Assembly (NCBI GenBank): GCA_963855995.1
Contig: OY979722.1
Coordinates: forward strand, 6,873,501 to 6,937,500
DNA from: Muricea muricata
Lineage: Eukaryota; Cnidaria; Anthozoa; Malacalcyonacea; Plexauridae
Direction: 5' to 3'
Length of the DNA: 64,000 nucleotides
Within the stretch, counting starts at the first letter, position 1. Each line of letters starts with the position of its first letter. This document shows, piece after piece, positions 7,001 through 63,000 of the stretch. The notes under the pieces were generated by a model that saw only the letters and a list, made by a program, of their open reading frames with translations, had not been told where the DNA came from and ran no database searches. The position numbers and the translations under genes are program-made.

Positions 7001-10000
7001 TTAAAATGGCCGCCAATGAGAGTCATTTTGATGTATTATACTGTTGCCAAGATTAGCAAATGGAGAAAAATTGCATTAATATAAACTCAAAGAATACAAA
7101 CAAACTTTGATGTTAAACTATCTTAAGGTGATAGATCGTCTGCAAATACCTCATTAAATACTTTTTCACTATTTAAAAATTACAAGCAAACTTTAGTTTT
7201 TACTTAGGAATTTTCACAAGTAAACTGTATTCATAAAAAACGACAGTGCATTTTATACAAGTAAATTTTACTAAAGAAATTATACTAAAACAATTATTCG
7301 CCTCAGGCTCAGTGATTGTGGTAAATATTCACCTCCACTTCGTCTCGGTGAATATGTTAGAGTTAAATACCGAGAAGTAGGGATGTATGTCATATACAAC
7401 CCCCGAGGACGCACTGCGTCCGAGGGCTGTATATGACATGCATCCCGACTTTCGAGGTATTTAACTGACTTAATTTATTTTTGAAGAGGTTTTCTAACAG
7501 AGTCTTTTGACTTTAAACAATTTAAGTCGAGATTCGTCGAGATTTTTCCACAGCTTTGATCTAATTATTTATTCAAGGTAAATAACCTGTATACAACCCG
7601 CGGTACATCAAAGAAAACCACCTCAAAAATAAATTAATCAACAATAATTAGAATTATACAAGCGCCGCCAAGCGGTGCGCTTGTATAATTCCGATTATAC
7701 GAGCACTTGAAGGGAAAATGTATGGAATACAAGTGGTATGACGTTTCCCAAAGGGTGAATGAGCCACATTATGCAACGCATAGGAGACTAGAAACTATAA
7801 GAAAGCGCGGGAATAGCCCCTGCTGCGAGCCCCATATGCTGGAGCCCCCCCGCGTGAATTCCCGACTTATTTAAAGCACTGTGAAGACCAGAAGACATGC
7901 CACGCGCAATTCAAAGATACTGGCCACCACAATCAATAGATATTAGAAACCTAAAGAAAACGTCGGGAGGGACGAGCGTAAGCACGCAGGGCGGGACCAT
8001 ACATTTCTCCCTTAACTAACTTCAGAGATGGAAAAAGAGGGTGCATCGCTCCTGGACTGGACACGTCTTGCAGTAGTTTGGGGTTGTTCCCCAGATATAC
8101 CGGGTAATGCACAATAAGTTCTATCAGTAGAGGCCACCAAGGTTGTGTGGCCCATAGTGGTGCCACTAGCACCAGAGTCGCGTGTTCCTTCTTGGCCTTC
8201 TGAAGAACTGACGGAATTAAGTTGAACGGAGGGAAGGCATATGCCTTCAGATTCGACCAATCCATCGTAAAGGCGTCGTTGTGCACGGCGCTCGGATCCG
8301 GTCTCCAGCTGACATACCGTTTTAGTTGGTGTGTGAGGCGGGAGGCAAAGAGATCTATCGTGCAATCCCTTATAAGGGGTGCTATGATTTTCGGTGGTAT
8401 CCTCCAATCGTTCAGATCCCGTTTCACCCGGGACTCGGTATCCGCTTCCACATTGGTTTTGCCTGGGATATGCTGTGCCAGAAGAAATAGGTGTCTCTTC
8501 TCGCACCAATCCCAAATCGCTATTGCTAGATGGAGAAGTTGCGGGCAGTGAGTGCCCCCCAAGTTGTTTAGGTACGAGACTGCTGTGGTATTGTCAAGTT
8601 TCAGACAAATGACTTTGTTGGTTTGGGTCGGGAGAAAGGACTTTAGGGCAAAGAATGCTGCCCGGAGTTCTAATACATTTATGTGGTCTTGAGACTCTTT
8701 CTCGCTCTAAAGACCTCCTGTCCGTATGGAACCCCAAGATGCCCACACCCCTGTTTGGAAGCATCCGAGGAGATGGTTAAGTCTGCTATTGGTGGAATAA
8801 TTGGACTCCCTTGCGGAGTTTGTAGGGTCGTTACCCACCATGATAGGTCTGATTTGGCCGATGGTGTCAAATCCACCGGAGCGTTGTAATTCGCCCATCT
8901 CTGAAGAGCGTTTATCTGAAGAGTTTGTAGTTGACGGTAGTGAAGTGGGGCAGACCATACGGCTGGACGACATGCCTCGAGAAGTTCTAGGACCCGAGAC
9001 AAATGGCGAATAGTTGGCCTGTTTGTGTTTAGGAGGAGGCGACATTCTTTTTGAATCTGTACAGCTTTCTGTTGGGGTAATATGAATTGCATTGACGCCG
9101 AATCCACCAGCATTCCCAAGAACACAATTTATTGGGATGGAGTTAGATTCGACTTCTCGTAATTTATTAGAAAACGGAGGGATTCGAGCAAGCTGATGGC
9201 TAGTGTTTTGTGGCGATTCAACGTCTCGATTGAAGAAGCTAAAATTAAAATGTCGTCGAGATAAATGATCAGACGAACCCCTTGACTCCTCAGTGAGGCT
9301 ACAACCGGCTTCATGATTTTTGTAAACAGCCTGGGGGCCACATTTAGGCCGAATGGCATTGCTGTAAATTCGTAAGTTTTGTCCCCCAACAGAAAACGAA
9401 GAAATTTTCGGGAGTCGGGATGCATGGGGACCGTCAGGTAGGCGTCTGTGAGGTCGAAATTTATCATATAGTCCCCCTTGTTGAGGAGAGACTTCAATGT
9501 TACTAAATTTTCCATTTTGAAGTGCCCGGTTTCGATAAACTGGTTTAACGCACTCAAATCTAACACCGGCCTCTGGCCGCCGCCTTTTTTCGGAACAAGA
9601 AACAATCTGTGGTAAAAACTGCCGTGGCTGATATTGCCCCCTTTTTTAGTAGTGATACAATTTCGTTTTTGATTATTGAGTTTTGATCTGATACCCGAGG
9701 TACAACTGACTGAACAGGCGTGCAACGAAAACAAATTTTTAAACCTTGAACTGCATTTAAAATAAACTGATCCCGAGTGATATTTAGCCAATTTGCATGA
9801 AAAAAACGGAGGCGACCGGTCAATGGGAGTTGCTGTTGAAGCGTTGGTTTTGGCGAAAGGGTTGTTGCTGAAAGGGCTGCTGTTGAAAGGGCCTCTTTTT
9901 TGCTTGAGCGAATTTTTGGTGCCCGAACGAGTGCGGGCGAAACTTGTCGTTTTTTGACTGATATTTACCAAACTGAAATCGATTGTTTGAGTAGGAATGG

Positions 10001-13000
10001 GATTGAGAGAGATTCTTTTGCAAATTTCGCGTAATATCAGCACTCTCTGATGCAATCTTAGTTATGTCGCTGCCAAACAGCTTCTTCTCGGCATTAGGAT
10101 ATGAAGCTTCAGCTAGAGAAACTTTCTTTGGATTTATAGCGTACAAAACTTTATATCTGCGTAGAACAGACAATGAATTTGAGGCATTGCCTAACAAACA
10201 AAGTGCTTTTTCCACAATACCCAATGTTTCGGTTACAGAAACCGTTTGATTATTTTCTAGTAAATCGTGTAAAGCGGTCAAAGGGGCGGCAACATTTAAG
10301 ACATGCCTCTGAACTTTAAGTAACTCTTTATCGCGTATCTCTACAGATTTTTTAAATTGGGACGGTACCTGATCTATGATTGTTTTGTCCAGTTTTGGTG
10401 TTGTGAAGACATCCAGGTCAGGCAAGGACGTCTGTGCTAGAATGCTAAATATTTGAGAGGACGATAAACTTCGACGAAAATTAGTCTTCAAAAAACTTTT
10501 AAAAGAGTCCGAAGTTGCCCAACTAGGATCGTGATCAACCGGATCAAATAACTGCCCTTTTAGGGCCGATTCGTCATGTCCGAGTTTCTCCTCGAGTGAT
10601 TGACCAGACTGTTTCACCTTCGTCGACAAAGTACTGTCGCTGTTAAGCTATTCGCTCGTTCGTGGGCTATCTCCGTGGCCTAAGTCAGTTTCCAGGGTTT
10701 CTGGAGCATATGGATCTATTAAGTCTGGGTCGTGTGTGACCACAACTGATAACTGATCCATTGAGTTTATTTCATTCGAAAAACTGGCTTCACCAGCTTG
10801 TGTTACAACAGGGCAATCGATGGCAGCCATTGCGTGGACGTTAACGTTGTTGTTGCTTCGTCCAGGGCCATTCGAGGAGACTGCTGTTTCCAAATTAGTA
10901 AGACGTTCACCTAGGTTCTTAACCGCCTGAGAAATACCGGACATTTGCTTCAAAAGTTCTGTAAATGCTACGAAATTACCGCTTGTAGATGTTGTATCGG
11001 TGCCACATTGGCCGTCATGAGAGCGACGACGTTTGCTGCTTTTCCGGTGTTTTCCTGATCGTTCTTTTGAAGAATGACTGCTCGGAGACCTCGATCTTTT
11101 CCTAGAACTCATTATATCCTGATACAAAAAGGTAAAAAACTAATTAAAAGACTTAAAAAGTGTAATTTTGCAAGCAGAAACTTACCTTGAACCCTGGCTT
11201 ATTCACACAATTGAAAAAAGTCGGGAATTCACGCGGGGGACTCCAGCATATGGGGCTCGCAGCAGGGGCTATTCCCGCGCTTTCTTATAGTTTCTAGTCT
11301 CCTATGCGTTGCATAATGTGGCTCATTTACCCTTTGGGAAACGTCATACCACTTGTATTCTATACATTTCGACCGGAAAGTGTGAAGTATAATCATGCAC
11401 TTCGCCTTCGGCGAATAATTGTTAAGTATGTATGTATGTATGTATGTGTGTATGTATGTATGTATGTATGTATACTGTATAACGTAAAAGTATAAAAGCT
11501 ATTGTACTTAAATAAGCTTTATTGTACATACTACAAAAAGTTTTTAATGCAATATTAAGTGAGATTTCGATATTTAAAATCCGACAAGCGTTTTGCAGAA
11601 TGCTATTGAAGTATAAGTATCATGATAAGTATGCTATATCGCTTTATTTGTCCTCAAACAAACGATTATGTAACATGTTTGTTTCAAACATCGCCACGAA
11701 CCCAACCAAAACACTTGTCTTTAGTCAAAGCTACCTTATCAAGCACGGAAACGTACAAAACTAATGAAATAATAAATGGTTTGTTTAATCCGCTCGGTCG
11801 GTGCTAAACATCGGCCGCTCGACAACAGCCGAATTTATACTAGATGACGGATTCCCGTCTAAGACGGAGAACTCGTTTTGATATAAATTCGTTAAACCAC
11901 GGGATGTCTGTCTTAATACTTCTGTCCAACTTTTCCGTCGTTTAGACGAAAAAGTTGGACAAATTTTTTGTTATATACGGAAAACTCGTCTTAAATTTAC
12001 ATCAGACAAATAAATCAGGCAGATTTTGCGAAATCCATAGCTCTGCCATTGGCTGCTTATTAATTATTCTGGACCTTTTGGGTTTTCTCTCCGGAAAAAC
12101 AACAAACAAAGGCAGCACTTAACTTTTCAAATTGCTCCTCGTCTTCGATGATTGACCCATCCTAGTTTTTTGCAATTTGTACCATATGCTTCTGGCCCTG
12201 AAGTGCTGTATAACAAACTTTTCGCTTAAATTTGGTAGAAATAATTTTGGATGAAGTATTGTACTCTGATCACTCATTGTACTAGATTCCACTTTGAAAA
12301 CCTAGCAACTCGCCTCAGTCAACAAATGAAGATATCAGGGTTTTTCATTTATTTGTCTTGTAATTTCTCGTCCAGAAGTTACATCAGACGGAAATCCGTC
12401 AGACGAGTTTTCCGTCCTAGGCGGAAATCCGTCGTCTAATATAAATTCGGCTATTGATACATCTATTGGGGCACTTGTTGTCACGCACTTTTGAAGTTCC
12501 TAGTTCAGAAATATGTAAATTTAAACGGAAATGCTCTAAAATCTAAGTCAACTTCTCAGGATGAACTAGATGTCAGGATGCAACAGCATTGGTACTGACT
12601 CGTCCCCAGTCGCTAGTGAAGGACTGTGGAAGAGTCAAGCATTTGTACTTAAATAGCTTGGTACGCCATTTTATGCAATTTTTGTCATCTTTCAAAATGC
12701 TTATTCAATTTGAAATATTAAGTAATAAATCAATGTTCCGGTAGTAAGGTAAGTTTATCTGTGTGCAAATCTACCTGACATAAGCTCCCCATCCTCAGAA
12801 AGTTTACACTACGCAGCAACAATCGTTTGAATGATGCCACTCGTCACAATACTTTGTATTGTTTACTGATCAGTACTCTTAAAGCTAAATGTTAAAAATA
12901 TATAACATCGAATATAAGATATATAAACCTTGCAATTAGTTAATAAGAAGTAAACATTTCCAAAGCATGCAGTTTATAGTAAATGGATCATTAAGCCGTT

Positions 13001-16000: not shown

Positions 16001-19000
16001 TTTGCAATGTTTTGGAGCAATTATTCCATACTAAAGCAGAGTAGTCAAAATGAAGTTAAAAAGCCATTATACATAGTTTTTACGTGTATCTCTGTCGATA
16101 AGATTCGATCAGCACTAACTGGGAACAGCCTTTGTCTAGATCCTACAGGCATGTACGCAGTTTTTTGACGTTTAAAATTAATTTGTTAGCTAAAAGTCAC
16201 GTATGGCTTTGTTTAATTTAATTTCTAAAATGTTCTGAATTTCACTTGCGGTATCCCCCACTAGCAGTAAGATTAGTGTTATCGGCAAAAAGTGCTGATA
16301 CTGAAGAGTCAAGACAATTCGGTAAATCATTTATATGGTGTTTTGGATTTTTTATATTTTAGTTGTTGGTTTTACCCTCCCCTCCATAGTGAACAAAAGT
16401 AAGAGACTGGGGACGAACAGTAGAAGAAGAGCGTGGTTGTCTTTTTGTGTGACTTTGTATTTAGATGTTTTATGATATTTTCATTAAATATATGCATATT
16501 TTAAACCGACTATTTGCCCGTGATAGTGAAATTGATCTTTAAAACACTCGACGGTTTTATACGAGAACAATTGGTCCTTCGACGAGCCGGATCAGGCGAA
16601 ATCACGGGCTTATTTGCGTGACTATTGACATCGACAAATTCGATACGGTACGAGTATGGCTGATGAAAACGGCAAAAAACCACCGGATGTACAGGAAAAT
16701 ATGGATGGAGACAAACAAAAAATTGACGAAGTGAAGAGCCAAGTAAGTACTAAAAGTACACGGTATTTAAAGCTGAAAAATAGAAAGAAAGCTGCGAAAA
16801 CTAGACTGACAAAAGCTCGAAATGAAATTGCAATGTTGACCACAGAGTACCCAAGTACTAAGACTGAGATTAGACGTGCTGTAAAGAAAATAAAGTCTGA
16901 GAGCGGGATAATTGAAAAGATTATCCATGCATTGAAAGAAACTGTTGTTTTAAGTGATGAGACACTAGAAAAGACAGATGTAGACACTGTAGTTGAGAAT
17001 TTAGACAAAGAACTATCTGACATCATGGACTCAGTGGATGTAAGTGTAAAAGCCGCTGAGGATCACATTAAGGAAAGACTATTGAAGGGTGAAAAAGAAT
17101 CAGTGTTATCAGCAGCTTCATCGAGTAAAATGTCTGTTGAGTCCTCACCTCAATGTGACCTGCCTAAGTCGTCCAACGGGTTACCCCTCTCCCAAACTTG
17201 TCATGCAATACCTGTTAATCCACAAATCCCCCCAAATCATGCTATGCCCCCATCCCAAAGCCACTCCTTGGGCCCTTCATCTGTGTCATCGCAGGACAAC
17301 CCACCCATAAGTCATGTCACAAAACCACACACTGGCCCAGTCGAGAAACCTGTCCTTGTCGTGCAACAAAAAGAGGTGCAAGATGCTAGTGAAAGGCTTG
17401 AGAACCTCTAGAGAGAGCAGAATGCTTTGGAAAATGAGTTACAAAAGAAGTCGGAGATTTTTAAACTAAATAAACAAAGAATAAAAGATGCACAATCCAT
17501 AGTGTATTTGAATAAAGCCAGAGCAAAAGACAGTAAGCTGTCACCACCTACACCTTATAAAGTTCCCCCCGCTGCGTCCATGCCCGCCTCCATGCATGTC
17601 AAACTGAAAGGTGTACAATTGCCAACCTTTTCCGGAGAGAATAAAGCTGAGTTCGAGGCTTAGAATGCTGCATTCACAGCGGTTGTGGATAATACTGATA
17701 TGCCTGTGAAAGAAAAGATGCTGAGGCTGCAAAACTGTTTGCGCGGAAAAGCACTGGAAATCGTCAGAGATCTCGGATACTCGAGTCACGGATATGTAAA
17801 GGCGAAGGAGAAATTACTACGAAAGTATGGTGGAAAGCGTCGACAGACACTTTCACACTTGGCAACTCTTCGAGGACTGTCGAAAGTACGACGTCATAAC
17901 TTGGAAGACCTGGAAGAATTGCTGGCAGTCATTGATCGAATACTCGTGGCACTACAAGATGGTGATGAACATGGGGAAGTCAAGGGACAACATCTTGGAC
18001 TTGCTGTAAAAGAGAAGCTTCCGGAGGAGTACGTACAAGATGACAAGCTTTGGTTGCATGAACAGAGAAATGAAGATAGTTTCGAGAAATTGGTTGAGTG
18101 GATTGACACCAGGGTTCAGATAATGGATGAAGCAAAGGAGGAGACGGGTGAGTTTGACAAACGACGCAACCCAAAAGACGGAGACAGGCATTATAATCGA
18201 GGACACCACACGGACAGTCGTGGTAAAAAATGTGTTGTAACAAAATGTACAAGTGACCATCCTCCATGGATTTGTCCAGAGTTCAAGAAACTCCCGTTTA
18301 CACGGCGTAAGGAGCTGATCAGCAAAAGTGGACGGTGTTTCCGATGTCTTGCAGCGGGTCATAGCAGTAAGAACTGTTCCAGGAATCGTAAGTGTGGAGT
18401 CGACGGATGTGAGAGTTATAAGCATAGCAGCTACCTACATGACCCAGAGTGGAAAAACACAAGAAAAGATACTCCACCACCAAGTCAAGAGCAAACTACC
18501 GATGAAACAAACGCGACTATGGTCACAAACGGCGATAACAATAACAAAACTACCTACAATACAGCCCAAGTTGAAAAGATCTCGTTGATGGTTTTGCCTG
18601 CTATGGTGCGAAGAAGTTAAAGATTAATGTTATGTTAGACCCCTGCTCAACTGGGTCATACATAACAGAGAGTGCCGCTGAGGAATTGCAACTAAAGGGT
18701 GAAAGACAAAATTTGACTATTTCGGGGACTGGTGGTACGGAAATCAAGAAACAATCCAGACGTGTCCAATGTTCGGTGAGTTCCATGAATGGATTATTCT
18801 CAGCACCTGTTGAAGCTAATGTCCTTGATAATATCACCGGAAACACACCAGCTATTGATTGGAGCACCCTGAAAAATGAATGGCCTCACTTAACCTCAAT
18901 TGAGTTCGACAGAGTTTCTAATCGCAAACAAATCGACATGTTAATTGGAAGCGACCACCCAGTTTTCCACCAAGTTTTACGGGAAGTTAATGGAAGACAC

Positions 19001-22000
19001 CAAAAAGACCCTGTCGCTCGACAAACACCCCTTGGATGGGTGTGCTTTGGCCCCACCTCCAAGAGTTATTCATCGATCAACACCCACGCCCACATGACCC
19101 GTACTTACCGCACTGGCCAGGTGAACGTCGACGACACAAATGACCTCTTAAGAAAGTTCTGGGAACTGGATGCTATCGGAATTAGAGACAATAGCATTCG
19201 CGCAATGACCAAGGATGAGACAAAAGCGATGGAAACTGCACAATCAACCCAAGTACTTAAGGATGGTAGATACGAGATAGGAATACCATGGAAAGAGGGA
19301 GAACCGGAATTCAAGAATAATTTCGAGATGGCCCTTTCACGTTTGCGCAATCTTGAAACGTCGCTCCTGAAGAAGCCCGAGATTGCAAGTGCTTATTGCG
19401 AGATAATAAAAGACTATGTTGATAAAGAATATGTGAGGAAAGTACCGATGACGGATGAGGAACAATGGTTCCTGCCTCATTTTGCCGTGGTAAATAACCA
19501 AAAGGCGTCCACGAAAGTTCGAATTGTCTTTGACGCTGCCGCAAAATTAGAGGGCAAAAGCTTAAATGATGCCATACATTCTGGACCCAAGTTACAACGG
19601 GAATTGGTTGACGTCTTGACCCGGTTTCGAAGAGCGCCTGTAGCCCTTAGTGCTGATATCTCACAAATGTTCTTGCAAGTTGGACTCGCAGAGAAAGACC
19701 GTCGTTTCCATCGATTTTTATGGCGAGTACTGGACGAGACCAAGCAACCCGAGGTGTACGAGTTCATGAGATTACCGTTTGGAAACACAGCATCGCCCTT
19801 CTGCGCTCAGCATGTTCTACATTCTCATGCCGAAACTAATAAAGAGCTTTATCCTGAGGCAGCCGACACTGTAGACAATTCTATGTACGTAGACGATGTC
19901 CTGGATTCGTGTGAAACAGTACCTGAAGCCAAAGATCTTCGAAAACAAACGACAGAACTCTTGTCTGAAGCAGGATTTCCCCTTCGAAAATGGATGTCGA
20001 ACGAGGTTGAAGTCATTGAAGACGTCCCATTCCAAGATCGTCTACCAAGTTTAGAAATTCAAAACGGCAACCTCCCAACCGTGAAGACCTTAGGAGTTTC
20101 CTGGCAAGCCAACCGAGATGTCTTCACCTTTCAAGTAACACCTCCACCTTTATCGGAACTACCAACGAAAAGAAATGTACTCAGCAGCATTGCCAACTTG
20201 TTTGACCCGATACAGATCCTTTCTCCATTTACTATCCGAGCAAAAATTCTACTTCAGAAGATCTGGGCAACTAGATTGAGTGGGATGAACAGCTACCAGC
20301 TAAGTTGATTGACGAGTGGAACGACTGGACGAAAGAATTAAACGATTTAATTCAATTTGAAATCCCTCGCTCCCTTCGCCTACCGAATCCGACCAAGTCA
20401 TGGTTACACACCTTTTCAGACGCCTCCAAAGACGCTTATGCCGCCGCATCTTACCTTGTTTGCGAGTACGATGGCAACCCCCCTACAGCCCGTTTGATTG
20501 CCTCGAAGACTCGCGTCGCCCCTCAGAAAGCAGTTACGATACCTAGACTTGAGCTCATGGGAGCAGTTCTCGCCACCCGTCTGTCCACGAACGTTTTAAG
20601 AACCATAAACGTGAACGGAGTAACATATTGGACCGACTCGACGAACGTTCTATATTGGGTACGGAATCAAAGCCGCATCTTCAAGCCATTTGTGGCAAAC
20701 CGAGTAGCCGAGATTCAAAGGGAGTACAATCCGGACCAATGGCGACACGTTCCTGGGGAGTTTAACCCTGCTGACCTCCCGACCAGAGGAGTTTCGGCAA
20801 CCGCGTTATGTCAAAGCAAGTCCTGGATGTGTGGACCGCAGTTTCTGACGAATGAAGAAGAGCATTGGCCAGAAAGATTACCGCATAATCCATCCCCGGA
20901 CGCTGTTGTGAGACAAGAAGAGAAGAAAGTTGAAACTCATGGAACTCATGAAACAGAAGATGTTGTTGACCAAACCAACCGTCTCGATCCTAGGCGATAC
21001 TCTTCGTGGACACGTCTAGTTCGTGTTACTGCCTGGATAAAACGGTTTGTAAAGAACTGCAAAGCACCGTCCGAGTTTCGAAATAAGTCGTGTATTTTAC
21101 AGAGCACCGAGCTAAGTGACGCCCAAACGTTTTGGCTACGAAAGGCACAAGTCGAAAGTTTTCCCAGCGGAGAAAAAGACAAACGTTTGTTGCGATTTTC
21201 GCCGTTGTTGGATAAAGATGGATTGCTGAGACTGGATGGCCGGCTGCGACTTGCCGAAGACTTATCCTATGATACGAGACACCCAGTCATTCTTCCGAGG
21301 AACCACCCTGTGACGCGACTGGTCATTGTGGACGCGCACGAGAAGCTTGGTCACGGCACAGGAACGGAACATCTGTTGACAGAACTTCGTTCGCAATTTT
21401 GGATTGTGAAAGGACGATTGATGGTTAGAACAACGGTCGAAAACTGTCCTGAATGCCGACGAAGATTCCTTGCGAAGCCTGTGGGTCAAAAGATGCCCCC
21501 CCTTCCTACATCGAGATTAACCTTACCGTTGAGAGCCTTCGAAAGAATTGGTACGGATTTCGCCGGCCCGTTCGTTACGAAACAAGGACGAGGAAAATCC
21601 CGGATGAAACGATATCTTTGTTTATTCACGTGTTTGGCTACCCGTGCGGTACACTTAGAGATGGCGTATTCGTTAGACACGGATGCATTTATAAACGCAT
21701 TTGTACGGATGACTGCACGGAGATGGACGCCCTCTTATGTGATATCGGATAACGGGACAAACTTTGTCGGGGCTGAAAAAGAGATATGTCAGAAGATACG
21801 CGAATTAGACCAAGAAAAAATAGTGAAGAAGACAACCCAACATCACATGATCGAGTGGAAATTCAACCCGCCTTCCGCCCCCCATTTCGGAGGCGTTTTC
21901 GAGAGTATGATTAAAAGCGCCAAGCGAGCTATTCGAGCGATCTTGGGAAATGCCGAAATTACAGACGAGGAGTTACAGACGGCAGTTTGTGGGGCGGAAG

Positions 22001-25000
22001 GACTTCTAAATTCCAGGCCGATTACCTACGTCAGCTCAAGTCCGGATGACTTGGTACCACTTACCCCTAGTCATTTCCTGGTAGGGGATCTTGGTGGACA
22101 GTTCGCCCCGGAAGTTAGCTCAAACGAAGCGTTCAATCCAAGGAAGCGTTGGCGGCGTATCCAACAATTAATATCCCAATTCTGGAAAAGATGGCGCAAA
22201 GAGTTCCTACCGAGCCTGAATGTCAGAGGAAAATGGTTTAATCCAAAGCCAGAGTTAACTGCAGGAGACGTCGTACTTTTGGTTGAGCCCAACGCAAAAC
22301 GTGGCGAGTGGCCGCTTGGTCGAGTCGTTGAAACGTATCGAGGTGATGATGACTTGATCAGAGTAGTGAAGATCCGAGTTGGGGACACAGAATATGTCCG
22401 GCCAGTGCACAGATTGTGCCCGTTGGAGAGACAATAATCGAACAATTGCACCAAACCTAACTTTAGCTTAACGAATGTAGTTACATTCGGGAGGGGGATG
22501 TTTTGGATTTTTTATATTTTAGTTGTTGGTTTTACCCTCCCCTCCATAGAGAACAAAAGTAAGAGACTGGAGACGAACGGTAGAAGAAGAGCGTGGTTGT
22601 CTTTTTGTGTGACTTTGTATTTAGATGTTTTATGATATTTTCACTAAATATATGCATATTTTAAACCGACTATTTGCCCGTGATAGTGAAATTGATCTTT
22701 AAAACACTCGACGGTTCTATACGAGAACATATGGAGGACCAAAGTTTGACCCCCGTGGCACACCCGTTGTGATATTTTCACTATTTGACATAGACATCCG
22801 TATTTTACCATTGCTGGGAGTGATTGAAAGTTAACAAGGTCTTCGCTCTACGACGGACATTTTGCCAAAGTTTTGGACATGATAATTTTTTGCCTTCTTA
22901 GGAAAGAACACGCTTGACTTCACCATCGACCCACGGCGGACTTTTGCGCCGTTAGCGTGGTTTGCATTGGTTTAATGGTTCTTGGTTTAATGAAAAGTAC
23001 AAAATTGAATGTTAGACGCTGATCAGTGGAGGTTTCCAATGCTTCTTCTGAAACGCACAATAGATTAAGGATGTTCGCTGGAACGTTTGTTACGACGAGG
23101 TCTAAAATTTTCTTTGTCTGGTCACGTACATGTTAATTTGGTGTAAGGAGCACTGAAGCAGTCAAAACATATTTCTCTAAATTTATAAAAGACTCGGCGG
23201 ATTTTTCCTGAAATAGCAGGTAGAAAGTTTGAATTCCACGTTAGATCTGGGAAATTGAAGTCGCCAGCGATAAGTAACTTGTCGTATTTCGCGAGGTTTC
23301 CTTGAAACTTGCAATTTCGAGCTCTAGCTCAATTAATTCTAATTAATTTGAGCTAATTATTCACCAAATTGATTTCAGAGTAAGATTAGAATTGTTCTAA
23401 TTTGTTGACCGCTGGCGTGGTCCGTACGCTTGCGTAATATACTTAACTAAAAACTTTCCGATAGTTACGACGATACATTTACTTAAATTGTCCAAAATAT
23501 CCACCAGGGGCCGGTTATATAAAAAAGTGATTAAAGTTAACTATGATTGATGGAAACGTCAACCAATCAGAACAACGTATTTTATACTTAATCACTATTA
23601 ACTACAAAACATTGATTAAAAAAGTGTTCAGGAATTTTATACAACCGGCCCCTGTCCAACTGAAATTTTGACAAAAAAAATAATCACCAAGTTTTTTAAA
23701 GTGGTCACTTTATTTCAATAAAACTATGAGGTAAATTTGAGCTTATTATGTGGAGCAATTTCCGCGTGCCCGCTCGCCTCGTGTGTTACACCCTTCTTTC
23801 GTATTCTCTCAACATTCCCCTCGTGCATTGTCACAGTACAATGGCACGAGACTCGTTTTCTATTTCTTGAGTATAACGACAGAATATTGCTTACCGTTGA
23901 CGCAAGATGAGTTTGGTGGCTTGGATGAGGATTCCACTCAATTGCACAACAATCCCATTTGCTTTGCCTCGAAATTTTGCCAACACACGAGATTCCATTT
24001 GATTGAGATAATTCAAACAATGCCAGTCCTCCACGGCTAAAAATATCCAAAAGCAATTGTGCAAAAACGAGTTGTCAATATAATTTAACGAACCAAAGTA
24101 ACGGCGATACTCTTATACATTTGCTAACAATTTGAAACTGCAAAATGAATGCAGTGCATTACCGCCGCGTAAAATGGTCCTTGAAAATCTTTAAAAACAT
24201 CCCATGCAAATTTCGGATGGGTAAAGTAACAGGGTCGAAACAGAGGGAGAATGCTTCTCACAAAGATAAAAGAAGGCCGAATATATATTAAAAACTGAAC
24301 TATAGTGGACAGCTTTGAAAAAATAAATACACATTTAATACATATACTACATATTTTCAATAACCAAATATGTTAACAGTACATCCCAGAGTTTAGTATT
24401 AAATTACATCGGTAAAGGTACATATATTTAGTGAGAAACGTTACCCTTTCCTTATCACGGTCCTTTTACTTTCTCAACGTGACATTTTTGCAGAATGTTT
24501 TGAAATAGCTGCAAGCAATATTTTACGGCGTTGAAAATGCTGTATTACTTTCCATTATTTTTATTTCTTCAGGGTTCTATATTAGTGCATTCGAAATGGG
24601 TTGGGTGAGTGGAAAAGAACGATGTCAAATTGTTCACAAGCGGTAATGACGGCGAATTTGGACAAAGTTAAGGCTTTACCTTGTTAATAGTTAAATTTTG
24701 ATTGTCGTATCTTTTCCGTAAAAATAGTTAAATAACTTACATTTACCAGCGAGAAATGCTTGCAAGCAAACAACTATCGAAATTAAAAGTCCAGTCCATA
24801 GTTCAGTGTTTACAATATACCCTTATTTGTAAGAAAAAAGATGAACCCACCCAAACTCGAATAGTTTGTTAGACGCCACGGTACAGACATCGTGGTTCCC
24901 ACGAACATTTCTTAGTATTCTCACGTCGAGTAACATTGTTGTAGGAACAAATTTTGCTTTCAAATTTAAAAGGTGAAAAAATAGTTTTAGAGACGTAATA

Positions 25001-30599: not shown

Positions 30600-41134
<10,535 letters not shown>

Positions 41135-43120
41135 CACTTACATTCTATACACTATTTTCCCCTTTGCATGTGGTTGTGACCTTGGATTTCCACATGAAAT
41201 CAGGGAAGTTGAGGGGTGATGGGGGTGTTTAAGCTATTGTCGGTAAATTGCACCGGTACATTGCTCCGGTGGTACTAGAGTGCATTGGCGGCATTGGTGG
41301 AGACTGGAGCCTTTTTTGCGCTAGTCTGAGTAGTCTGCACGGCAAAAAAATCACGAGTTGTTGAGATCAGGATTGAACAATGTTGTGCTGCCCAATTGTG
41401 CTGCCCATGTTCTTCAATGTTGTAAACAATATTGTTCATAAGTTTCTGAAAACATTCTCTGATCGTAAAATTTATTTTAACACGAGCTTGGGGGATGGAT
41501 TCAGGCCCAACAACTTGTTCAGTATTGTTGACAGCAATCACAACATTGAACAAATGTGGACAGCACAACATTGTTTAATACTGCTTTCAACTACCTTCAT
41601 CAACTCGTTATTTTTTACGCATGTAGGCCTAAATAATTATCTACCTTTTTATAAAGCCGGTCCAAGCATTGTCATACCTGTTCAAGCTCAATACTGGCAA
41701 CATTGAACAATGTTGGCAGCAAAATACCCAGTACCACACAATACCAGTGTTATTTTCAGCATAAAATTTGGAAGAATCATCAAAAATAATACTCAGTGAT
41801 TTAAGTGAATATACATTCGTTTTGGTGTTAATTAACATATGAATGCGAAGAATGGATATTTTAGTAAAAAAGTTGAAATAAAATTCCTTGCTTTTGATGC
41901 TTTTTTCTGCTAAATTCTCGGCAAATCAGAAAGTTTGAAAACAAGGTTGCAAACAAATTAACAAACATACGTTATACGCTCATCAACAGTTGTTCCGGCT
42001 GCCGCCATTCAAGTACAACATAGAGCAATCATTTCCCATAAGAAAAACTCAATCTTTGAGAATTATCGATAAACTGGATATACGGCTGTACATACCATGT
42101 GTATTATGTAGTTATTTTAGTATTAATCTTTCACTAAATTAAGTCACCAATATCTGCACAGTATAACTACACATGCAGGAAATACCAAATCCGGCCTAGT
42201 TCAGTTTGATAAACCTATACTTGTTTATTTCCACACTGGTATTCTGTGGTAGAATTTGGTACTGTAACTGTAAGTTGTCTAACCGCAATACCGGCCCACA
42301 GGAAGAAAAAATACGGTGAAAAACTATACAAGAAAACTGAGTAAGCCATGATATATACCACACACAACAGTTGCTCATGGGCTACTGTGATATATACTTG
42401 TAAAATATTCCGCGGTACATACACCTGTACTACATAAAAAATCCCAGCCGGTGATTTTGAGGTGGTGAGTATTTGGTGGTGAGTATACTAACGGTGTGAG
42501 TATTTGTGAGGGTGATGGTATACAGTATACTCCAGTGGCAAGAGTGATGGTCCACAACAGACAGTGCGGCATGAAAGACCGCAGCGAAATCCGCTGACAG
42601 ATGGTATCTGGGTCTCACGCTCACGGACGATAAAATCGAAAGAGAATCGGAAATAATCGGAGAATCGGGCTCGGTGGCTCGGTTCAATCGGCGAAATAAT
42701 GAAATTGTAAATAAAACATGCTGTGATGGCCGGCGGGTTTAATGTATTTGTTGTATGAAGATATTCATTTGCTGCGACTTTTTACTATCTGAAAGTTGAA
42801 AAAGCTGTATCTTGTTGGTAAGTTGGTTTATAATTCTTGTTAAATGTTGTTGTGTTCTATAATGTTGCTGAATTATCTGATTTTTTGAATAATTAAATAC
42901 GGAAGCAGTAGCACCGACGGGCGAGGCGTCGGCGACCAAGTTTTTCGTGTGTTGCTGTACTGCTGTGTGTAGCAGATTTCACACTATATTTGGTTTACAT
43001 ATTCATTTCGATACATTGAGGTTGCTTATTAAGTTATAACTAACGCCAAATGTAGAATGAATTGTGTGTTTTGCGGTACCAGCACCATTGTTTTGGAAAT
43101 TGTGTACTTAAAATATGGCC
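41135..43120. other. Upstream spacer of syntrophin
   Basis: Should contain the syntrophin promoter. 41370-41720 is rich in repeated ACAACATTGTT/AACAATGTTG words, a dispersed palindromic family by its look. A minus-strand frame of about 80 codons (about 42739-42980; Gln/Asn-rich, no ATG) is open but has no domain I recognise. No other gene seen. Confidence 0.45.
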
Positions 43121-52524: not shown

Positions 52525-55500
52525 ATGTTGTCTTTATCTGACGCTACTGAACTTGAATCTCTTGGTGATAAAGCAGTCACTCGATTCCGGCCGTGGTGGG
52601 AAGTTCTCACATTTTATTGCCTAAATGGTCTTTTAATGGCAGTGCTTTTTGCTCTAGCGGGCATCACCATTTCTGGTACCTATAACATCTGGTGTTTCCC
52701 TGTTGGTAATGACACACAATTGGACTATACTGTCATGAACTACGCCAGCTCAAGGTGCTCGAGAATATTTGAAGGGAACTATCTCATATACTTTCCATAT
52801 TTGATGTTTCTGGAGTGGGCTGTCTTCTTTGCGGTCCATTTGTTGTGGTTTAAATTGCCAGCAACTTTTTTTTTGTTTCAACAATTATCTGAAGTGTTTT
52901 CTGAATTTACCGCCATTAAACCAGTGGAATATAATACCGATAAAAGGATTTCAAAAGGTAATACAGCGTTTAGATATTTACGTAGAGGCCCCTAAGGGGT
53001 TTTCATCATAAATATCTACGGACTTACATAATTATAGAATGAAAAGAAAAAATAAGAAATTTATAACTTCAGTATGCCCGGGGGTTGTGCCTTTTACAAC
53101 TAGTTAAATATAGATGCTTAAAAGTAATTTTAACGTTAAATAATAAATATAACACATACTATTGGACATTATATAATAATACGTGTTCATTCTGCATTTT
53201 CATTGGTCGCGAGCTGTGTGTTATTAAAGTACACACGCACGGATGACGTCAGCTGATGGCGTGATCTAATTTAGCTAATTTATTTCGCGGGTCTTCGCAT
53301 GATTTTTGTCAACTTTATTATAATATAAAACAAATAGATTTCATTTTTTTGTGCTTCTGCACTGTAATAGATCACAGATGACGCCATAGCGTGTGAAGAA
53401 CAAAAAGTCACGCACTCGACTGCGTCTCGTGCGTACTTTTTTGTTCTTCACACGCTATGACGTCATCTGTGATCTATTACAGTACAGACGCACGCAAAAA
53501 TGAAATCTATTTGTTAAATAGAACACATTAACAAATGACGGGATGTTGTTTGGCAATAACAAACATGGCCGCGTACTTATTACTGAACTGAACTGCAAAC
53601 TGAACTATGTATTGCTATTTAAAGTAAATATGCCGTGAAGTTCAAATCCTAGTAAATGCATTGGTCTTATTGACTGAATTGTTATCAGTTATAGACCCAA
53701 AGCGAGGGTGATTCGGCAAAATATTAACCCGAAGTGATGATATTTCCCGAGGGCTTTAGCCCGAGGGAAATATCATCACTAAGGGTTAATATTTTGCTGA
53801 ATCACCCAAGTGAAGGGTCTATAAATGATATATTATACCGAAAATATATAACTGTTCAAGTCCAGGACAACTTGTCAACATACCTTCGAGAATACGAGAT
53901 TTCGTTTTTTACTCAAATAAACAATTTTTCCAAAGTTCTTTGCCAAATGGCATCAAGTAAATAGTGCTGAGTAATTTTGCCGTCTTTTGAACACCCTGTT
54001 TTAAAAAATTTCCAGTGAAAGCACTTAAGAAACACCGTAGCATATCCATACACTCTTGTGTGCTCCCGCCATTTTTCATTGTTTTTAATCGTCGCGTGTA
54101 GCTCTCGTGGGATGTCGCGTGAGATTATTCAAAAGTCGAATCTCCCGGGATATTCGGCCGAATCTCCCGGGAGATTCTGCCGAATACCATGCCTCGGGGA
54201 AAAAACCTAGGGTCAGAATTTCCTGTAACATGGTATTCGCTGAAAAATACTGTGGACACGTGCTACTAATAGAACACTCTGATTGGACGAGCTAAGTATG
54301 AGGTATAATATCGTTAATTATTATAGTATCAGTAAAATTTTTGTAAGCAAACCTCGATAGTCTGCTTGAAAGCCTGAATTTTTGAAGGGACAAATTTCAC
54401 CCAATCAAAATTTGTGTGACTATAAAATTTGTATTTACCTAGAGCTGCAAAAATTGTTCAAATTGTAAACCGATCTTTCCAAGCCAAGGTATATTGGTTT
54501 ATCTCACTGCGTGAATTTATCATCGCAAAGCTTTCGATTCGTAAGCTAAGACCTTCTTCAGTGCGAATAAATAGTTACTCTACGAACTCGAGTAGTATAT
54601 GAGCTAATCTCATCTATGACGAGAGTGAGTAGAATAACTGTTTTATTATATAGACAACAACTGCTACCAAAAAAAACTTTCCAGTGCAGTTATATTTCAC
54701 TAAAATATAGTCAGTTTAGCAATGTAAACAACTTGAGGCAACACTACTTGTCGCTATTTAAAAAGTATGTCTTAAACCAATTTTGCCAAAAGTTTCAAAT
54801 TCTTAAAAAATATAAATGGCGAAACAAACGCATTTTGACCTCCAAATTGAGAGCAGTTTTTGTTTAATATTATAGCAATTCAAAACAATTATAATCTTTC
54901 CACCCTTCGGGCGACTTATTCAGTATCAATTCGTAAAAAAACTGTTTTTATACTTGTTTAGACGACATTTATCTAAGTTTATGTGTTGTACTCATGGCCA
55001 AGAAAGCCTGCCAAAATACTCAAAATAAGATTTTTAGCGATCGAAAAACTTTCAGCCGCCATCTTGGTTTCTCTACTAGTATGATATGAGCCAATTAGAT
55101 TGCAGTGTTATTTAATGTCCGATGGCAGTCTATATAATAATTAACAATTAGCCGTCGAAGGCGAGTTGATTATCGGAGAATATTATTACACAAGTTATTT
55201 TAATTTTGTTTATTTCTTTGTCCGTAATTTGTAGAAAACGGCGGCTAGTCGCCATTTTGTAAACTTGTTTTTACTGTTATATTCACCTGTAGGTGAATAT
55301 AAAGGAATGTCACGTCATTTAGACCAATCGTAACGTCGGATTTCTTATGTTCACTTGTGTAAAAATACTAATAACTATTAGCACTGATCAAGAATCGAAC
55401 TTAATAATATATTTACGTGGTGTTTCCACAAAATTGTACTGAGATTGATATTCACCAGTCAAGCGTATAGAACTTATGTTCGTGTATTTTTACTTTATAA

Positions 55501-56895
55501 AACCTCTGCTTACCAAACCTTAGCTTACCAGATTTGCTTTGTTTTCTAGGTAACGCTGGTTTGAGCAGTAAATTAACTGGACTGCGTCTCAGAGAGAACA
55601 AAGACACGAAACAAAAACTCCGAAATCTCGTTGATCGTCTTATGGAAATTGTCCGAGAAGACAATCGCTTGGTTGTTATGTACACACTGAAAGCTATTTT
55701 TCTTTTTGTTTCAAATGCAGTTGTGGTAGTTGTATTGGCTTGGTGGTTATATGGTCGACAATGGCACGCGTCATTCGCATGTGATCTTTCCAATCATATT
55801 CCACTCATATATGAAGACTTAACGTGTTCTTTACCTGCAGCACCATTTCTATACGGCTTAATGATTTGTAATGTAATTTTTGCTTTTTGTATTTGTCTAT
55901 GTAATCTCTTTGCGTTAAGATGGGTTGGGACATTCCGAATAATTCGATGCAAGCATTATGACGACGCCTTTCAGAAGTGGACGTCCTTATCTCAGCAAGT
56001 GGGATATTTAGACTTTTGTTTTTGCCTAGATTTAGCAAGCTGGACTAGTAAAGACGGGAAAATATTGGGAGACATTATTTACTCGAGCCTCAAGCTTTAT
56101 CAGAAATCAGATAAACACTATTCGTATGTTGAACTAATGCAAGATGTTCATAAGAAGGGGAGGTTTTCATCATTGTTCTATCAAGGGGAGGTGATAGCTA
56201 ACGACCTTGGGCTAAAGATTTTGGAAGGAAACGTGTCAGACGATTGCTTATTCAACGCCATTGCAAAAGTTATAGGGGAAGATACGGTGACGGTGTGTGA
56301 TGGAATTGTTGACGAACTGACATCAAACATGTATGTTTACAAGGACCTTATTGACCGCGATATGAATTGCCCCGTTTTCGAGGAGTGCATTGAATTGATA
56401 CAAGAGAAAAGAACACCGAAGGAGTTTCATCACTATGCACTAATGGCTGCATGTAATGCTTTCAGTATTAATATCCTTGTTCTTACATCCAGTGCTAAAT
56501 GTTGCTTTTATAAAACAACAAATGATGGTACTGTAGGTGCTATCCCAACAAAGTATGTATTTTTTGTTCATCCAAATTACTACACCGCTGTAGTGGACAA
56601 GCCAGATCAGGCAGAGGAAATCAACAACAGAGAACTGTTTCTCTTGGACTCTGGTTATCGTAAACAAATTCAAAGCAAAGCAAAGGCTTCCTGGGAAAAA
56701 GACGGAAAGCAGGAGTTTGAAAAAACCATGAAAGCTTTAAACCCCCAAGTAATACAGTATGGAAAGAGCACTGTCCCGCCATCCAAACGACCAACCAATA
56801 TTTTAACTGACTTGTTCAGTGAAACTGGGCATAAGATTTCCAAACAAATTTTAAGAAAAATTTACATTCCAGGTTTGACAAAGCAACAGATTTAG
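52525..56895 (+). CDS. LRRC8/pannexin-like channel module fused to an OTU-like domain
   Basis: Two coding exons, 52525-52957 and 55550-56895 (GT/AG, phase 1), 592 aa. The start ATG follows an AG acceptor by eight bases and matches the very short N terminus of LRRC8 proteins (FRPWWEVLTFY near residue 21). Membrane segments at about 26-48, 87-110, 187-212 and 243-270. The two outer loops carry two cysteines each (57, 78; 222, 237). NYLIYFPYLMFLEW resembles LRRC8 TM2. Family proteins form hexameric anion or large-pore channels in the plasma membrane. Instead of leucine-rich repeats, residues about 365-496 look like an OTU domain (SDDCLFNAIAKVIG, FHHYALMAACNAFSINILVL, VFFVHPNYYTAVV) on the cytosolic side. 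Cys377 is in place of the OTU nucleophile, but the position of the catalytic His is Tyr488. A lysine-rich tail follows. The OTU identity is from motif pattern only. AATAAA lies at 57037-57042 and 57164-57169. Confidence 0.82.
53338..53513. mobile_element. Hairpin element in the channel-OTU intron
   Basis: Arms of about 75 bp: CAAATAGATTTCATTTTTTT and TGTAATAGATCACAGATGAC on the left, inverted on the right, around a CGACTGCGTCTCG loop. Confidence 0.85.
53692..53822. mobile_element. Second hairpin element in the channel-OTU intron
   Basis: Starts TATAGACCC and ends GGGTCTATA. Arms of about 60 bp include GTGATTCGGCAAAATATTAA and GATGATATTTCCCGAGGGCT. Confidence 0.88.
54122..54190. repeat. Short CG-rich palindromic cluster
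   Basis: Repeated CGAATCTCCCGGGA words in both orientations in the same intron. Confidence 0.7.
54588..55140 (-). mobile_element. Interspersed non-autonomous element, copy 3 (GATGGCGGCCG family), inverted
   Basis: Reverse complement of the unit at 3316-3955 and 14031-14605, in the channel-OTU intron. It has TAACTGTTTTATTATATAGA at one end and the TATATAGACTGCCATCGG terminus at the other. Confidence 0.7.
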
Positions 56896-57541
56896 AAAAG
56901 AAATATCTGTTTTGTTGTAAAGACCATGGCTACACTGTATCTGTACAGTAAAATTTAATATTGCGTAGCTTAGTAACAAAATCTGTAATCTTCTATTAAA
57001 TATATATTACAAACGACGCGCTTCATGAAATAGATTAATAAAATATATAGATAACCTCTGAACACGCATGATTCACATGTTGAATTTAGGGATTTAATTT
57101 TTACATAGATATAGCAAGAGTTATTTAGTTTTCTCTTATCCTAGCAACATGAAATGCACTTTAAATAAAAATTACTGGTTAAAATCACATTCTTGCACCA
57201 TACAGAATTGAATATGCAAACTTTTAGAAACAAGAACATGCGTGTATATTAAGCTTTCGGACTTTTGCGAACTATATATATGTATATATTGAGTTATTTG
57301 TGATCTTTGAAGTTGTTATCTTCAAATTGTGCTTTTTCATTTAAGAAAAAATGGCTGAATTGTTCTGTAATAACGTGTTTGGAACGTTTGTAAATTTCGC
57401 GCCATTTTGAATTTAATTAATTCAGAACTTCGTGTCGGATTAATTCAATTTATTCATTAATGCATTAATTCAGAAATCGTGCGAAAACGCTAAAATAGAC
57501 GGGGAAAAACGCTGGAAAACCCGGAATTTCGAACAAAAGTA

Positions 57542-60015
57542 ATGGAACAAGAAAACAAGGATTCGCATTCAATGATGCTAGAGCACAAAGGAAAGTACAC
57601 AAAGGAAGAATTGAACATGAATATCAAGGCATGGAGAAAACAGAACAACTATCTGCAGAGTCAATTCGTGAATAACTGCGAAATGACAAGTTTGCGAAAT
57701 GAATGCCCAACCCTGGAGAAATGCATGTATGATCTTTATCAAACCCGCGAAGCTTTAGAGACTATTTTAGAATCCTCTGTGGAGAAAATAGCACTTTTTG
57801 GGAAATTTAAGGACATGAGTCGAGAAAACAATGCGATAATGAGACGAGTACACCAAACAGTCCGTGATCTAAAAATGGATTATAAAGATGAACACTCGAT
57901 TGGATCGAAGCTCCGTTTCTTGCAAGTCTAGCAAAGGTTTTATGTCTGCCTTCACGAAGGGAAGCACTAGCTCTTCTACACGACAAAGCCGTCAAGATTT
58001 GGAAGAAGAAGCAGCAACATTAAAAGCTAAAATGCGTCTGAGTCAGGAGAAAGAAGAATTAGAATTAGTTAGAGCCTATCAACTTGCTTTAGAAGAGATA
58101 GAAGGACGAATGCTAGAGATCCAACAGGAAGAAAAAAGGATCAAGGAGCAAATCGAGTTATCCAAGGAAAAATTCGAAATAAGAGAAGAATTGGCTGAAG
58201 CGGAAGCACGGATCGAAGTGTGCACAAAATATGAACATCTGGATGCGCCCTTTGAACTTGTTGATGAAGTTCATTGCGAGGATGGAGCTCAAGATCATAT
58301 GCAGAAATTTATCGAATCCCAGCCTGACCCAACAATGATTAATAACGAGCCTGAAAATACCATCTTTTGTAGACCCCCAGAATCTCAACACCCCCTGCCA
58401 AGGACGTGGAGAGCAGTAAGGTTACTTACAACCAGCTCAATCCTCATTTCCCTTATTATGTAGGTAACAAAGTCAACGAATCAACCGTAATCGAAACACC
58501 TTCCAATAATCCCATTGCTTCCACTGCAGTTGAAAGTTCTGCAAACATTCCAACCTCAACAACGACTTCTCGAAATGACCCAATCGTTCTTCAAACCCAG
58601 CTGTGTGCAGTCACCAAATTGCTTGAATCCCCGAATCAAAGTCGACTACCCCTACCTGAACCAGGTACCTTCAATGGTGATCCACTGAACGGAAATATCC
58701 AGTATGGCTAAAGGCCTTTGAAACCCTCATCGAAAGTCGATCAGTGAATCCAGCAGAACGACTTCACTTTCTTGGAAGATATGTGGCAGGAGAAGCCAAG
58801 GAAATAATTCTAGGATTTATCAAAGAGCTAAAGAGATGTTATCCAAACGTTATGGAGATCCATTTGCGGTGGCATCTGCATTCCGAAAGAAACTTGACAC
58901 ATGGCCACAGATTGCTCCGCACGATAGCTTGGGACTACGAAAATATGCAGATTTTCTAGTACATTTGAAAAGGCGATGGAGAAGGTGAACAGTCTCGTGG
59001 TACTCAACGATGATCAAAAAATCAGAAAATGGCCTCACGACTTCCCAAAGGGGCTCCTTCAAGATGGGGACGAACTGTTTATAAGTGAAAGAATGAGAAC
59101 AACTATGTCGTGACTGAAGCTGATATTGCATGTGATCCAATTAACAGTCGACAGCGCAAGAGTGAAGAAGAGTCGAAGGGACCCAGGAATAGAAGAGATA
59201 ATGCCGGTTATAGATTTGCACCTCGTGTACGAAATGGAGTAGATGCGAGCAGAGCTTTGGCAACCCAATCTGGTAAAGACTTGTATGCTTTGTGATGGAA
59301 CCCACGAACTCGAATCCTGCACGAAATACAATGATATGGATGTGAAGGCAAGGAAAGAATTCGCCAAAACAAAGGGTCTCTTCAAAGGCTTCGGATTAGT
59401 TCGATTGTAACCGTTTGGTTGCATCACGAAGATAACCCTGAAAGAGAGAGCCTAGTTTATGCTCTTCTGGACGACCAGTTTGACACAACGTTCGTATCAC
59501 AGAGTGCTCTCAATAACCTTGTTGTAGAAGGACACAACCCAGATTTCGCTCTCGACCATGCATGCAGACAGTGAAGTTATAAAGAGTCGCAAAGTAAACG
59601 GATTGATGGTTAATTACTTTAATCGTAGTACCGAGATAACAACTAACACGCATATTTTCCTGCGCACTTTCTCTATAAAGAAAGTTGTGAAGGAAGTGAT
59701 CAATCCACAGCAGATTAGACAAATGATAGAATCGGATTTCTCCGAAAAACGTAGCGAAGGACAGCGATTGTCAATGGACGATAAGAAATTTCTAGAGCAA
59801 CTAGAGCATGGAATTCATCAGACGGACAACGGTCATTACGAGATCCCCTTGCCCTTTCGTAAGACACTTCCCAAACTACCCAACAACAAACTTCTAGCAC
59901 TGCGTAGATTGGAGAGGCTCAAGATTCGTCTAGAAAAGAACGAGCGATACCGTCAACACTACGTTGCATTTATGAAGGACCTTATCGGTAAAGGTTACGC
60001 GTTACGCTCAATTCG
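57542..60015 (+). pseudogene. Second BEL/Pao element: degenerate gag, protease and start of reverse transcriptase
   Basis: Plus strand, at least five frame changes. The gag lead (57542-57931) is followed by a long charged coiled coil (LALEEIEGRMLEIQQEEKRI, about 58010-58230). The capsid-like part has PLPEPGTFNGDP and ERLHFLGRYVAGEAKEIIL. Protease is at YALLDDQFDTTFVS (about 59460). The start of the reverse-transcriptase region follows (QQIRQMIESDFSEK, GHYEIPLPFRK, LPNNKLLALRRLERL, YVAFMKDLIGKGYA). It is then cut by the LINE at about 60004 and resumes at 63443. It belongs to a different BEL lineage from the element at 16339-22729, judged by gag. No 5' LTR was recognised. Confidence 0.85.
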
Positions 60016-63000
60016 AAGAGTCATTACTCATCATGGCGGTTAGCACGTTAACTCAACGCTCCTGTTATCTCGTCGTAGTGTTGCTCTTTTGGACTCTTTG
60101 GAAGTTCAGAGGAGATAGCAAAAGCCTATATTGTAATGGTAGCCTATTTACGGCCTTTAAGTTGGATATGAAGCAATTTCCTGGACGAAATTCGGGACTC
60201 CCAAGGCAGAGTTGTGATAGTAAATTGCCAACATTGGTGAAGTTTCGAGCTGGACTTCTTTTAACGAGGACAAGCCTGACTGCTGCTGGACTTATTTTGC
60301 TTGCTGGTGATGTAAGTTCTAACCCTGGCCCTGTGTTTAGTGCAACTAGTGAGGTACAAGCTGAGAACCTTTCCTTCTCGTCTCGTGTTGAAAATTATTG
60401 TAATGAAACGTGCCCAGAGCCAAACAGTCTTGCAGGCTTGACTAAAATGAAAGGAGTAAATATATTCCACCAAAATATTCGGGGTTTGTTTGGAAAAATG
60501 GCTAATTTATCCACCGTGTTTGAACTAGGAAAGGACATTGACATCTATACCTTATCAGAAACACACATAGTAAATAACAGCGAATTTGATAATGATAAAC
60601 TATATCAAATCCCGGGGTACCACTTTGTGAAGAAGAACAGACCTAGTGGACAACACGGTGGAGTAGCGGCATATATATCGAACAAACTACAGTGGAAAGA
60701 GCGACCGGATATTAAATCGGAAAGTTTAGAGTGTATTTGGATAGAGATTTTCCCAGTAAAGGCGAAAAGTTTCCTAGTTGGCTGTATTTACCGCCCCCCT
60801 GACTCGTCCCTTTACCACTTGAAAGACTTTAACAAACTTTTTGAATGTATGCTGTCAATTGTAAACGAATTAAAAATGGAAACGATTCTTATGGGAGATA
60901 TGAACATAAATTATCTTAAAAAGTCGGATCATCAAGAATTAAAGGATATTATAAATATTGCTGGTCTTAAACAGATTATTGATAGCCCCACGAGAGTTAC
61001 TGCAGAGTCCAGTACGCTGATAGATATTATATTGACAAATAGTGAACAGAATATTGCAAAATGGAAAGTAGTGCCTCTATCGTTAAGTGATCACGATTGC
61101 GTGGGTTGCGTGCGTAAGCTAAACAATCGAAAGTATACGGGAAAAACAATCAAAATACGAAATTATTCAAACTATAACTCGACCGAATTTTGTAAAGATA
61201 TAAATGCAGAAAATTGGCACAAGCTTTACCTAATACAAAGCGTAAATGAAGCGTGGGCATTCATGGAAGATCTGTTAATGCGTAATATAAACAAACATGC
61301 TCCCATTATAGAGAAGCGGGTTAAAGGACGTTTCTGTCCGTGGCTCTCGCCTGAACTGAAGAATCTAATGAACACTCGTGATAAACTTCATCGGAAGGCA
61401 AGGAAAACAAATACCGAGACCGACTGGATAGCCTATAAACAGTTGAAAAACCGATGTAACAACGCCGTAAAACAAGCCAAGTATGAGTATCATCGAAATC
61501 TTCAAGATGAAACCTGTAATAACCCTAAAAAGTTTTGGAGAGTAATAAAGAATATATTTCCTAGAGCAAGTTCAAAACAAACTAGTCTGGACGAAGACTG
61601 CACAACGGATACAAAGACAGTCGCGAACAAATTTTGCAAATTCTTTTCAACTATGGCTTTTAAATTAAAACAAAAGTCAATGCCACTAAGAAATTTTACT
61701 TGGGGAAAACCACCTGCACAGTCGAAGGTGAGAACAAACAAACAGTTTGAATTCACGTATGTAAGCAAAATCTTTGTCGAGAAACAGTTGAAGGCTCTTA
61801 AACGTGGGAAATCTCCTGGACATGATAATATTCCTCCTGGTATATTGAAGGATGCAGCAAGTGAACTGGCGACGCCTTTGTCTTATATTATAAATCTGTC
61901 CTTACGTACCGGTGTGGTGCCCTCAAAGTGGAAAATTGCCAAGGTGACTCCTATTCACAAAAGTGGATCAACATCATCCTTCGATAACTATCGACCTATA
62001 TCAGTGTTGCCGATATTATCTAAAATTTTAGAACGTGCTGCACATAAACAGTTAACCGAATTCCTCGAAATTAACAACTTATTATCTAGAAATCAATTTG
62101 GCTACCGTAAAAGAGATCTACAGAATATGCAACAGCTCTGTTTACGGACAATATTCGAAAGGAAGCGGACACGGGGAATCTCGTAGGAGCTATATTTGTT
62201 GATCTATCAAAAGCTTTCGACACGTTATCTCATAGTATATTACTGGTGAAACTCGAAAGTTATGGTATCGTGGGTATAGAACATAAATGGTTTTCTGACT
62301 ACTTATTTCAACGTAAGCAAGTATGCAGCTATAAAAACACATTGTCAGATGAATTCGCTTTAACATGTGGAGTGCCGCAAGGGTCGATTTTGGGACCAGT
62401 ACTGTTCCTATTATACCTTAATGACCTGGAAGAAAATCTCATTCATTCGAGAGCTGTATTATTTGCTGATGATACAGTTCTTTATGTGGCAGATCCATCA
62501 TTTTCCACTATCGAAAGTAAATTGAATGCTGACTTAAAAAATCTGTATAAATACTTTACAGAAAATGAACTAGTTATCAACCTTAAGAAGAATAAAACCT
62601 AATCAATGTTGTTTGGAACAGCAAAAAGATTAAGCAGTTGCCCAGATGAATTAGACTTACGCTACCACGATACAAAAATAATTTCAACCACCACATATAC
62701 ATACCTCGGAACTACCTTAGACAAAACACTGAACATGGGTGAAAATTTCAGAGTGACCTATAGGAAACTATCGTCAAAGTTACGTCTACTCTCTTCCTTG
62801 AAGCCCTGATAAACAAAGAAAAGTTTGGGGATGATCTATCAGGGGATAATTCTGCCAACAGTCTTATTCAACTGCATTGTAAACCTTAACTATTCAAATA
62901 CCCAACTAACGATGCTGGAATCAATTGATTGCAGAGTTCAGAAGATCCTTGGGGAAAAACGACCCAGTACCCTCAACGAAATTCATAAACATGCCGTGTT

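Follow-up and report, generated by a model that had tools for sequence, protein, structure and literature searches.

An LRRC8-type channel gene of Muricea muricata with a predicted pseudo-deubiquitinase domain as its C-terminal tail

Can an LRRC8-type pore carry a tail other than leucine-rich repeats (LRRs), and what might such a tail do? The question is raised by a gene at positions 52525-56895 of a 64,000-nucleotide stretch of Muricea muricata DNA (GenBank assembly GCA_963855995.1, contig OY979722.1, positions 6,873,501 to 6,937,500 of the forward strand), the whole of which we call the window. An earlier note, made from the sequence alone, had proposed a channel in which an OTU-like domain replaces the LRRs. 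This architecture, an LRRC8-type channel with a putative pseudo-deubiquitinase C-terminal domain, is confirmed at the level of sequence and predicted structure, where the channel fold, the OTU fold, their physical linkage, the loss of catalytic residues and the conservation of the pairing across the family all hold. We suggest, with a probability of roughly 0.55, that the protein is a large-pore LRRC8-type subunit whose dead OTU tail gates the pore by binding a cytosolic partner.

The gene encodes 592 residues from two forward-strand exons, exon 1 (52525-52957) and exon 2 (55550-56895), which join in frame at GT/AG. Exon 1 contributes residues 1-144 plus one base and covers a short N terminus with PWW, the first transmembrane helix (TM1), the first outer loop and TM2; its ATG aligns with the Met1 position of the full-length homologues, and a GT donor follows at 52958. 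The predicted intron (52958-55549, GT to AG) spans 2,592 bases. Exon 2, part of a single open frame at 55501-56895, contributes residues 145-592 and the stop, with TM3, the second outer loop, TM4, a linker, the OTU-like domain and the tail. ATTAAA/AATAAA sites lie downstream of the gene at 56995, 57037 and 57164. Because the sole exon junction is a predicted one, the model might in principle have fused the channel exon of one gene with the OTU exon of another. However, TM3, TM4 and the OTU-like domain all lie within exon 2, and therefore the channel-OTU linkage does not depend on splicing; moreover, the full-length homologues P0001 and P0004-P0007 continue across the 52957/55550 junction with no gap. 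A gene-model error is thus barely credible, and the placement of both parts in one gene stands, with at least the TM3-TM4-OTU linkage present in 25 of the 28 homologues described below.

The assignment of the first half to the LRRC8 type is borne out by several lines of evidence. Exon 1 matches PF12534, the LRRC8 pannexin-like transmembrane region, at E 5.3e-9, and this is the sole match in the Pfam scan of the window protein, in which no innexin family appears at E <= 1. By fold comparison LRRC8 is the best match of the channel part; pannexins and innexins match less well and have another kind of tail. Four helices are present in the predicted model of P0001, whose numbering is that of the window protein. 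TM1 (residues 24-50, 52594-52674) coincides with a hydropathy peak centred at 34-46, while TM2 (residues 84-110, 52774-52854), which starts with YFPYL, shows peaks of only 1.6-1.8. TM3 (residues 185-213, 55669-55755) peaks at 2.42. TM4 and its cytosolic extension (residues 242-284, 55840-55968) are placed by the homologue alignment, the P0001 model and hydropathy, and are directly preceded by a PAAP motif that is invariant in 17/17 rows of alignment A1. As in LRRC8, the long TM4 runs into the C-terminal domain. The LRRC8-like frames of the host genome share a PWW-like N-terminal motif, reading PVWD (L001), PWLN (L002) and PWWD (L004).

The two cysteines noted for each outer loop prove to be a family trait: C57 and C78 are conserved in 20/20 rows having a real N terminus, and C222 and C237 in 30/30 rows having that segment. 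The raw column counts, 21 for Cys57 and 24/25 for Cys78, are inflated by misplaced fragments that lack a real N terminus (P0008 in both columns; P0002, P0003, P0009 and P0010 in the Cys78 column). LRRC8 proteins have six outer-loop cysteines, whereas this family has four. A further difference is the tail itself, as the Pfam scan finds no LRR family at E <= 1 in the window protein; as a control, L002 (1369-3315), one of the LRRC8-like genes of the same genome and one that combines PF12534 with LRRs, gives LRR_4, LRR_8 and LRR_1. A sub-threshold match to MLKL_N occurs in 2/31 rows, with a best E of 0.011 that is better than the best for OTU (0.047); in P0005 the stretch concerned is residues 125-194, between TM2 and TM3.

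In place of the LRRs stands an OTU fold, at about residues 350-497 (56164-56607), followed by a C-terminal tail (residues 498-592, 56608-56892) of three helices, the third of which comes after a linker modelled at low confidence. The identification comes from fold comparison and profile comparison, since the sequence searches give none. Structure comparison matches OTUD3, OTUD1, DUBA and Otu2 at 13-16% identity. Pfam OTU (PF02338) does not match the window protein at E <= 1, nor do plain Pfam scans call it in any of four homologues and a paralogue exon; in searches of PDB chains, exon 2 and alignment A2 each hit a single row at chance level (E 0.26 and 0.72, respectively), neither of them OTU or LRRC8. 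Scoring 150 of 235 candidates in the host genome yields at least 122 OTU (PF02338) matches; some are present as repeated copies or sit within very long open frames, and these may belong to mobile elements. The OTU-like part of the window protein shows profile similarity to these host-genome domains, a similarity that does not separate mobile-element copies from ordinary OTU genes as its source.

The deubiquitinase function that had also been considered finds no support at the catalytic positions. The nucleophile position was placed at residue 377 (56245-56247) from the ends of the structurally aligned ranges and from what we take to be the catalytic residue numbers of OTUD1, OTUD3, DUBA and, less surely, Otu2. 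The catalytic His position falls at 488 (56578-56580) by OTUD1, DUBA and Otu2, and two residues later by the OTUD3 range end if this is read ungapped. HHalign likewise matches residues 377 and 488 to the Cys and the His in the host genome's own OTU domains. Among the 31 aligned rows, Cys occupies position 377 in 11, Asp in 10, Ser in three, Asn in two, and Gly and Glu in one each, with three gaps; at position 488, 27 rows have Tyr and two have Asp, with two gaps. Cys at 377 never occurs together with His at 488. Seven rows of one subfamily have a His one residue early, at 487, and these too are without the nucleophile, as all seven have Asp377. OTU enzymes also have an Asp three residues ahead of the catalytic Cys; it is absent here in 24/24 rows with a residue at that position. 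An active deubiquitinase tethered to the channel, trimming ubiquitin near the membrane, would be consistent with the OTU fold and with Cys377, which is kept in the window protein and 10 other rows. However, with the catalytic His missing from 29/29 rows, the nucleophile replaced in 17/28 and the preceding Asp lost, this activity is very improbable. Therefore, the family reads as one of pseudoenzymes, its OTU-like domain as a catalytically dead pseudo-deubiquitinase that differs from OTUD3, OTUD1, DUBA and Otu2 in the replaced His, the low identity and the fusion to a channel.

The pairing extends well beyond this gene. A first homologue search scored 7,995 candidates and gave 16 proteins, which were recovered unchanged when their alignment served as the query; a search with the paralogues (7,994 candidates scored) added 12, for a total of 28. 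Fifteen of these cover both the channel and the OTU-like part (92-100% coverage), another 10 have TM3, TM4 and the OTU-like part with no recognisable first half, two are channel only and one is OTU-like only. Seven of the 15 full-length homologues have a longest contig of 2.2-2.9 kilobases, a length that fits transcripts. The only two with names, a "Hypothetical predicted protein" of Paramuricea clavata and the "uncharacterized protein" LOC114532622 of Dendronephthya gigantea, are both from Octocorallia. A GFP-like gene used as a taxon marker gave one match with three internal stops, and the link to octocorals rests on the two named proteins. The host genome spans 453 Mb in 74 contigs, and nine exon matches in it define four family loci: the window gene itself, a paralogue at C7:1242661-1244882 that gives 620 residues once spliced, and a tandem pair of distant paralogues, L026 and L027, at G000:C2:22131000-22147500 (-). 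One locus of the pair gives 624 residues; the second has a frame break and no exon 1 visible in the stretch examined. When the channel part of 17 OTU-family rows (A6 has 31) and of three LRRC8-like rows is placed in a tree, which carries a long-branch warning, a 100/100 branch separates the OTU family from the LRRC8-like genes. The simplest reading of this split is that the channel-OTU fusion arose once.

We compared identity in four segments between the window protein and P0001, P0004, P0005, P0006 and P0007. Exon 1, which holds TM1 and TM2, ranks as the most conserved segment in all five comparisons (75.7-91.0%). In the same order, residues 145-340 are 81.1, 61.5, 61.9, 57.7 and 57.9% identical, and the OTU-like part (355-500) is 70.5, 58.2, 50.0, 57.3 and 61.5% identical. 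Relative to the second channel half, the OTU-like part thus shows no consistent excess of divergence. These values bear on whether the protein is still a channel, or has become a membrane scaffold presenting the dead OTU domain. Residues 145-340 are not clearly better kept than the OTU-like part in P0006 (57.7 versus 57.3%) or P0007 (57.9 versus 61.5%), and certain LRRC8 homomers carry no current, according to PMC9399500. On the other hand, identity is higher in residues 145-340 than in the OTU-like part in four of the five comparisons, exon 1 leads in every one, and the four outer-loop cysteines are present in every row with the segment. A pure scaffold is accordingly improbable.

If the protein is a channel subunit, the dead OTU tail is probably its inner switch. 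Subunits would join into a ring, with the four helices lining and holding the pore and the outer loops bearing the conserved cysteines. The OTU fold would hang from TM4 into the cytosol, and a partner, be it ubiquitin, a ubiquitin-like protein or another protein, might bind the OTU-like domains and move the pore between closed and open. By analogy, a dead OTU fold would suit a protein-binding switch where LRRC8A has its LRRs: in PMC9399500, binders on the LRR domains raise or lower LRRC8A activity, with synthetic binders that inhibit or potentiate it, and truncation of the tail lowers the current. That article also states that surface trafficking of LRRC8A needs the LRR tail, and the LRRC8-like genes of this genome, one of them with LRRs (L002), might supply partners. 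It is thus possible, and we hold it tentatively, that the role of the OTU-like domain lies in assembly, trafficking or the pairing of subunits rather than in gating, with the channel regulated otherwise, for example by swelling as in LRRC8; present evidence does not separate this role from gating, and both could hold.

The closest parallel for the tail is OTULINL/FAM105A, which likewise has a dead OTU domain at the membrane and differs in relying on its own predicted membrane-localisation motif, with no four-helix channel; ubiquitin binding is reported to be absent (PMC7862380). Ubiquitin is therefore not to be presumed the partner here. A narrower proposal is doubtful, namely that a ring of dead OTU domains senses ubiquitin chains or some ubiquitin-like modifier, perhaps in infection or stress, and opens the LRRC8-type pore so that ions, osmolytes or ATP are released.

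Several points count against the proposed gating by a dead OTU tail. In 5/5 comparisons exon 1 has changed less than the OTU-like part (for P0001, 91.0 versus 70.5%), which would fit an adapting binding surface or weaker constraint. The OTU signal is faint, as PF02338 reaches E <= 0.1, below the cut-off, in 3/31 rows (best 0.047), and single subfamilies compared with OTU by profile score probabilities of 13.8, 0.3 and 18.1%. The full-length P0001 model is of middling confidence, with a predicted local distance difference test score (pLDDT) of 72.7 and a predicted template modelling score (pTM) of 0.47, and therefore does not establish the relative placement of the channel and OTU-like domains. 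The long-branch warning on the tree belongs here as well.

Elsewhere in the window, an open frame at 40232-41137 (-) has PDZ and PH_17 domains and resembles syntrophin. Retroelement frames at 18575-22434 (+) encode reverse transcriptase, a Pao-type peptidase, DUF5641 and an integrase zinc-binding domain; a non-long-terminal-repeat-type endonuclease/reverse transcriptase frame lies at 59976-62183 (+), and another reverse transcriptase frame at 9132-10061 (-).

The view in the earlier note that no named family has this pairing agrees with the literature searched: among the listed titles and abstracts, whose coverage leaves out most subscription journals, none describes LRRC8 or pannexin paired with OTU or a deubiquitinase, and the listed titles on LRRC8 in invertebrates and corals do not describe it either. 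LRRC8-like genes are mentioned in Nematostella (PMC9399500), so that cnidarian genes of the LRRC8 type are no novelty by themselves. It has been proposed that LRRC8 is a pannexin-type channel that acquired LRRs as a new tail (PMC3928549). The family described here indicates that pores of the LRRC8 type also come with a tail of quite another sort, a putatively dead OTU fold. It makes testable the notion that the tail of such channels is a swappable sensor, and that an ion channel may be gated through recognition by the fold of a ubiquitin enzyme.
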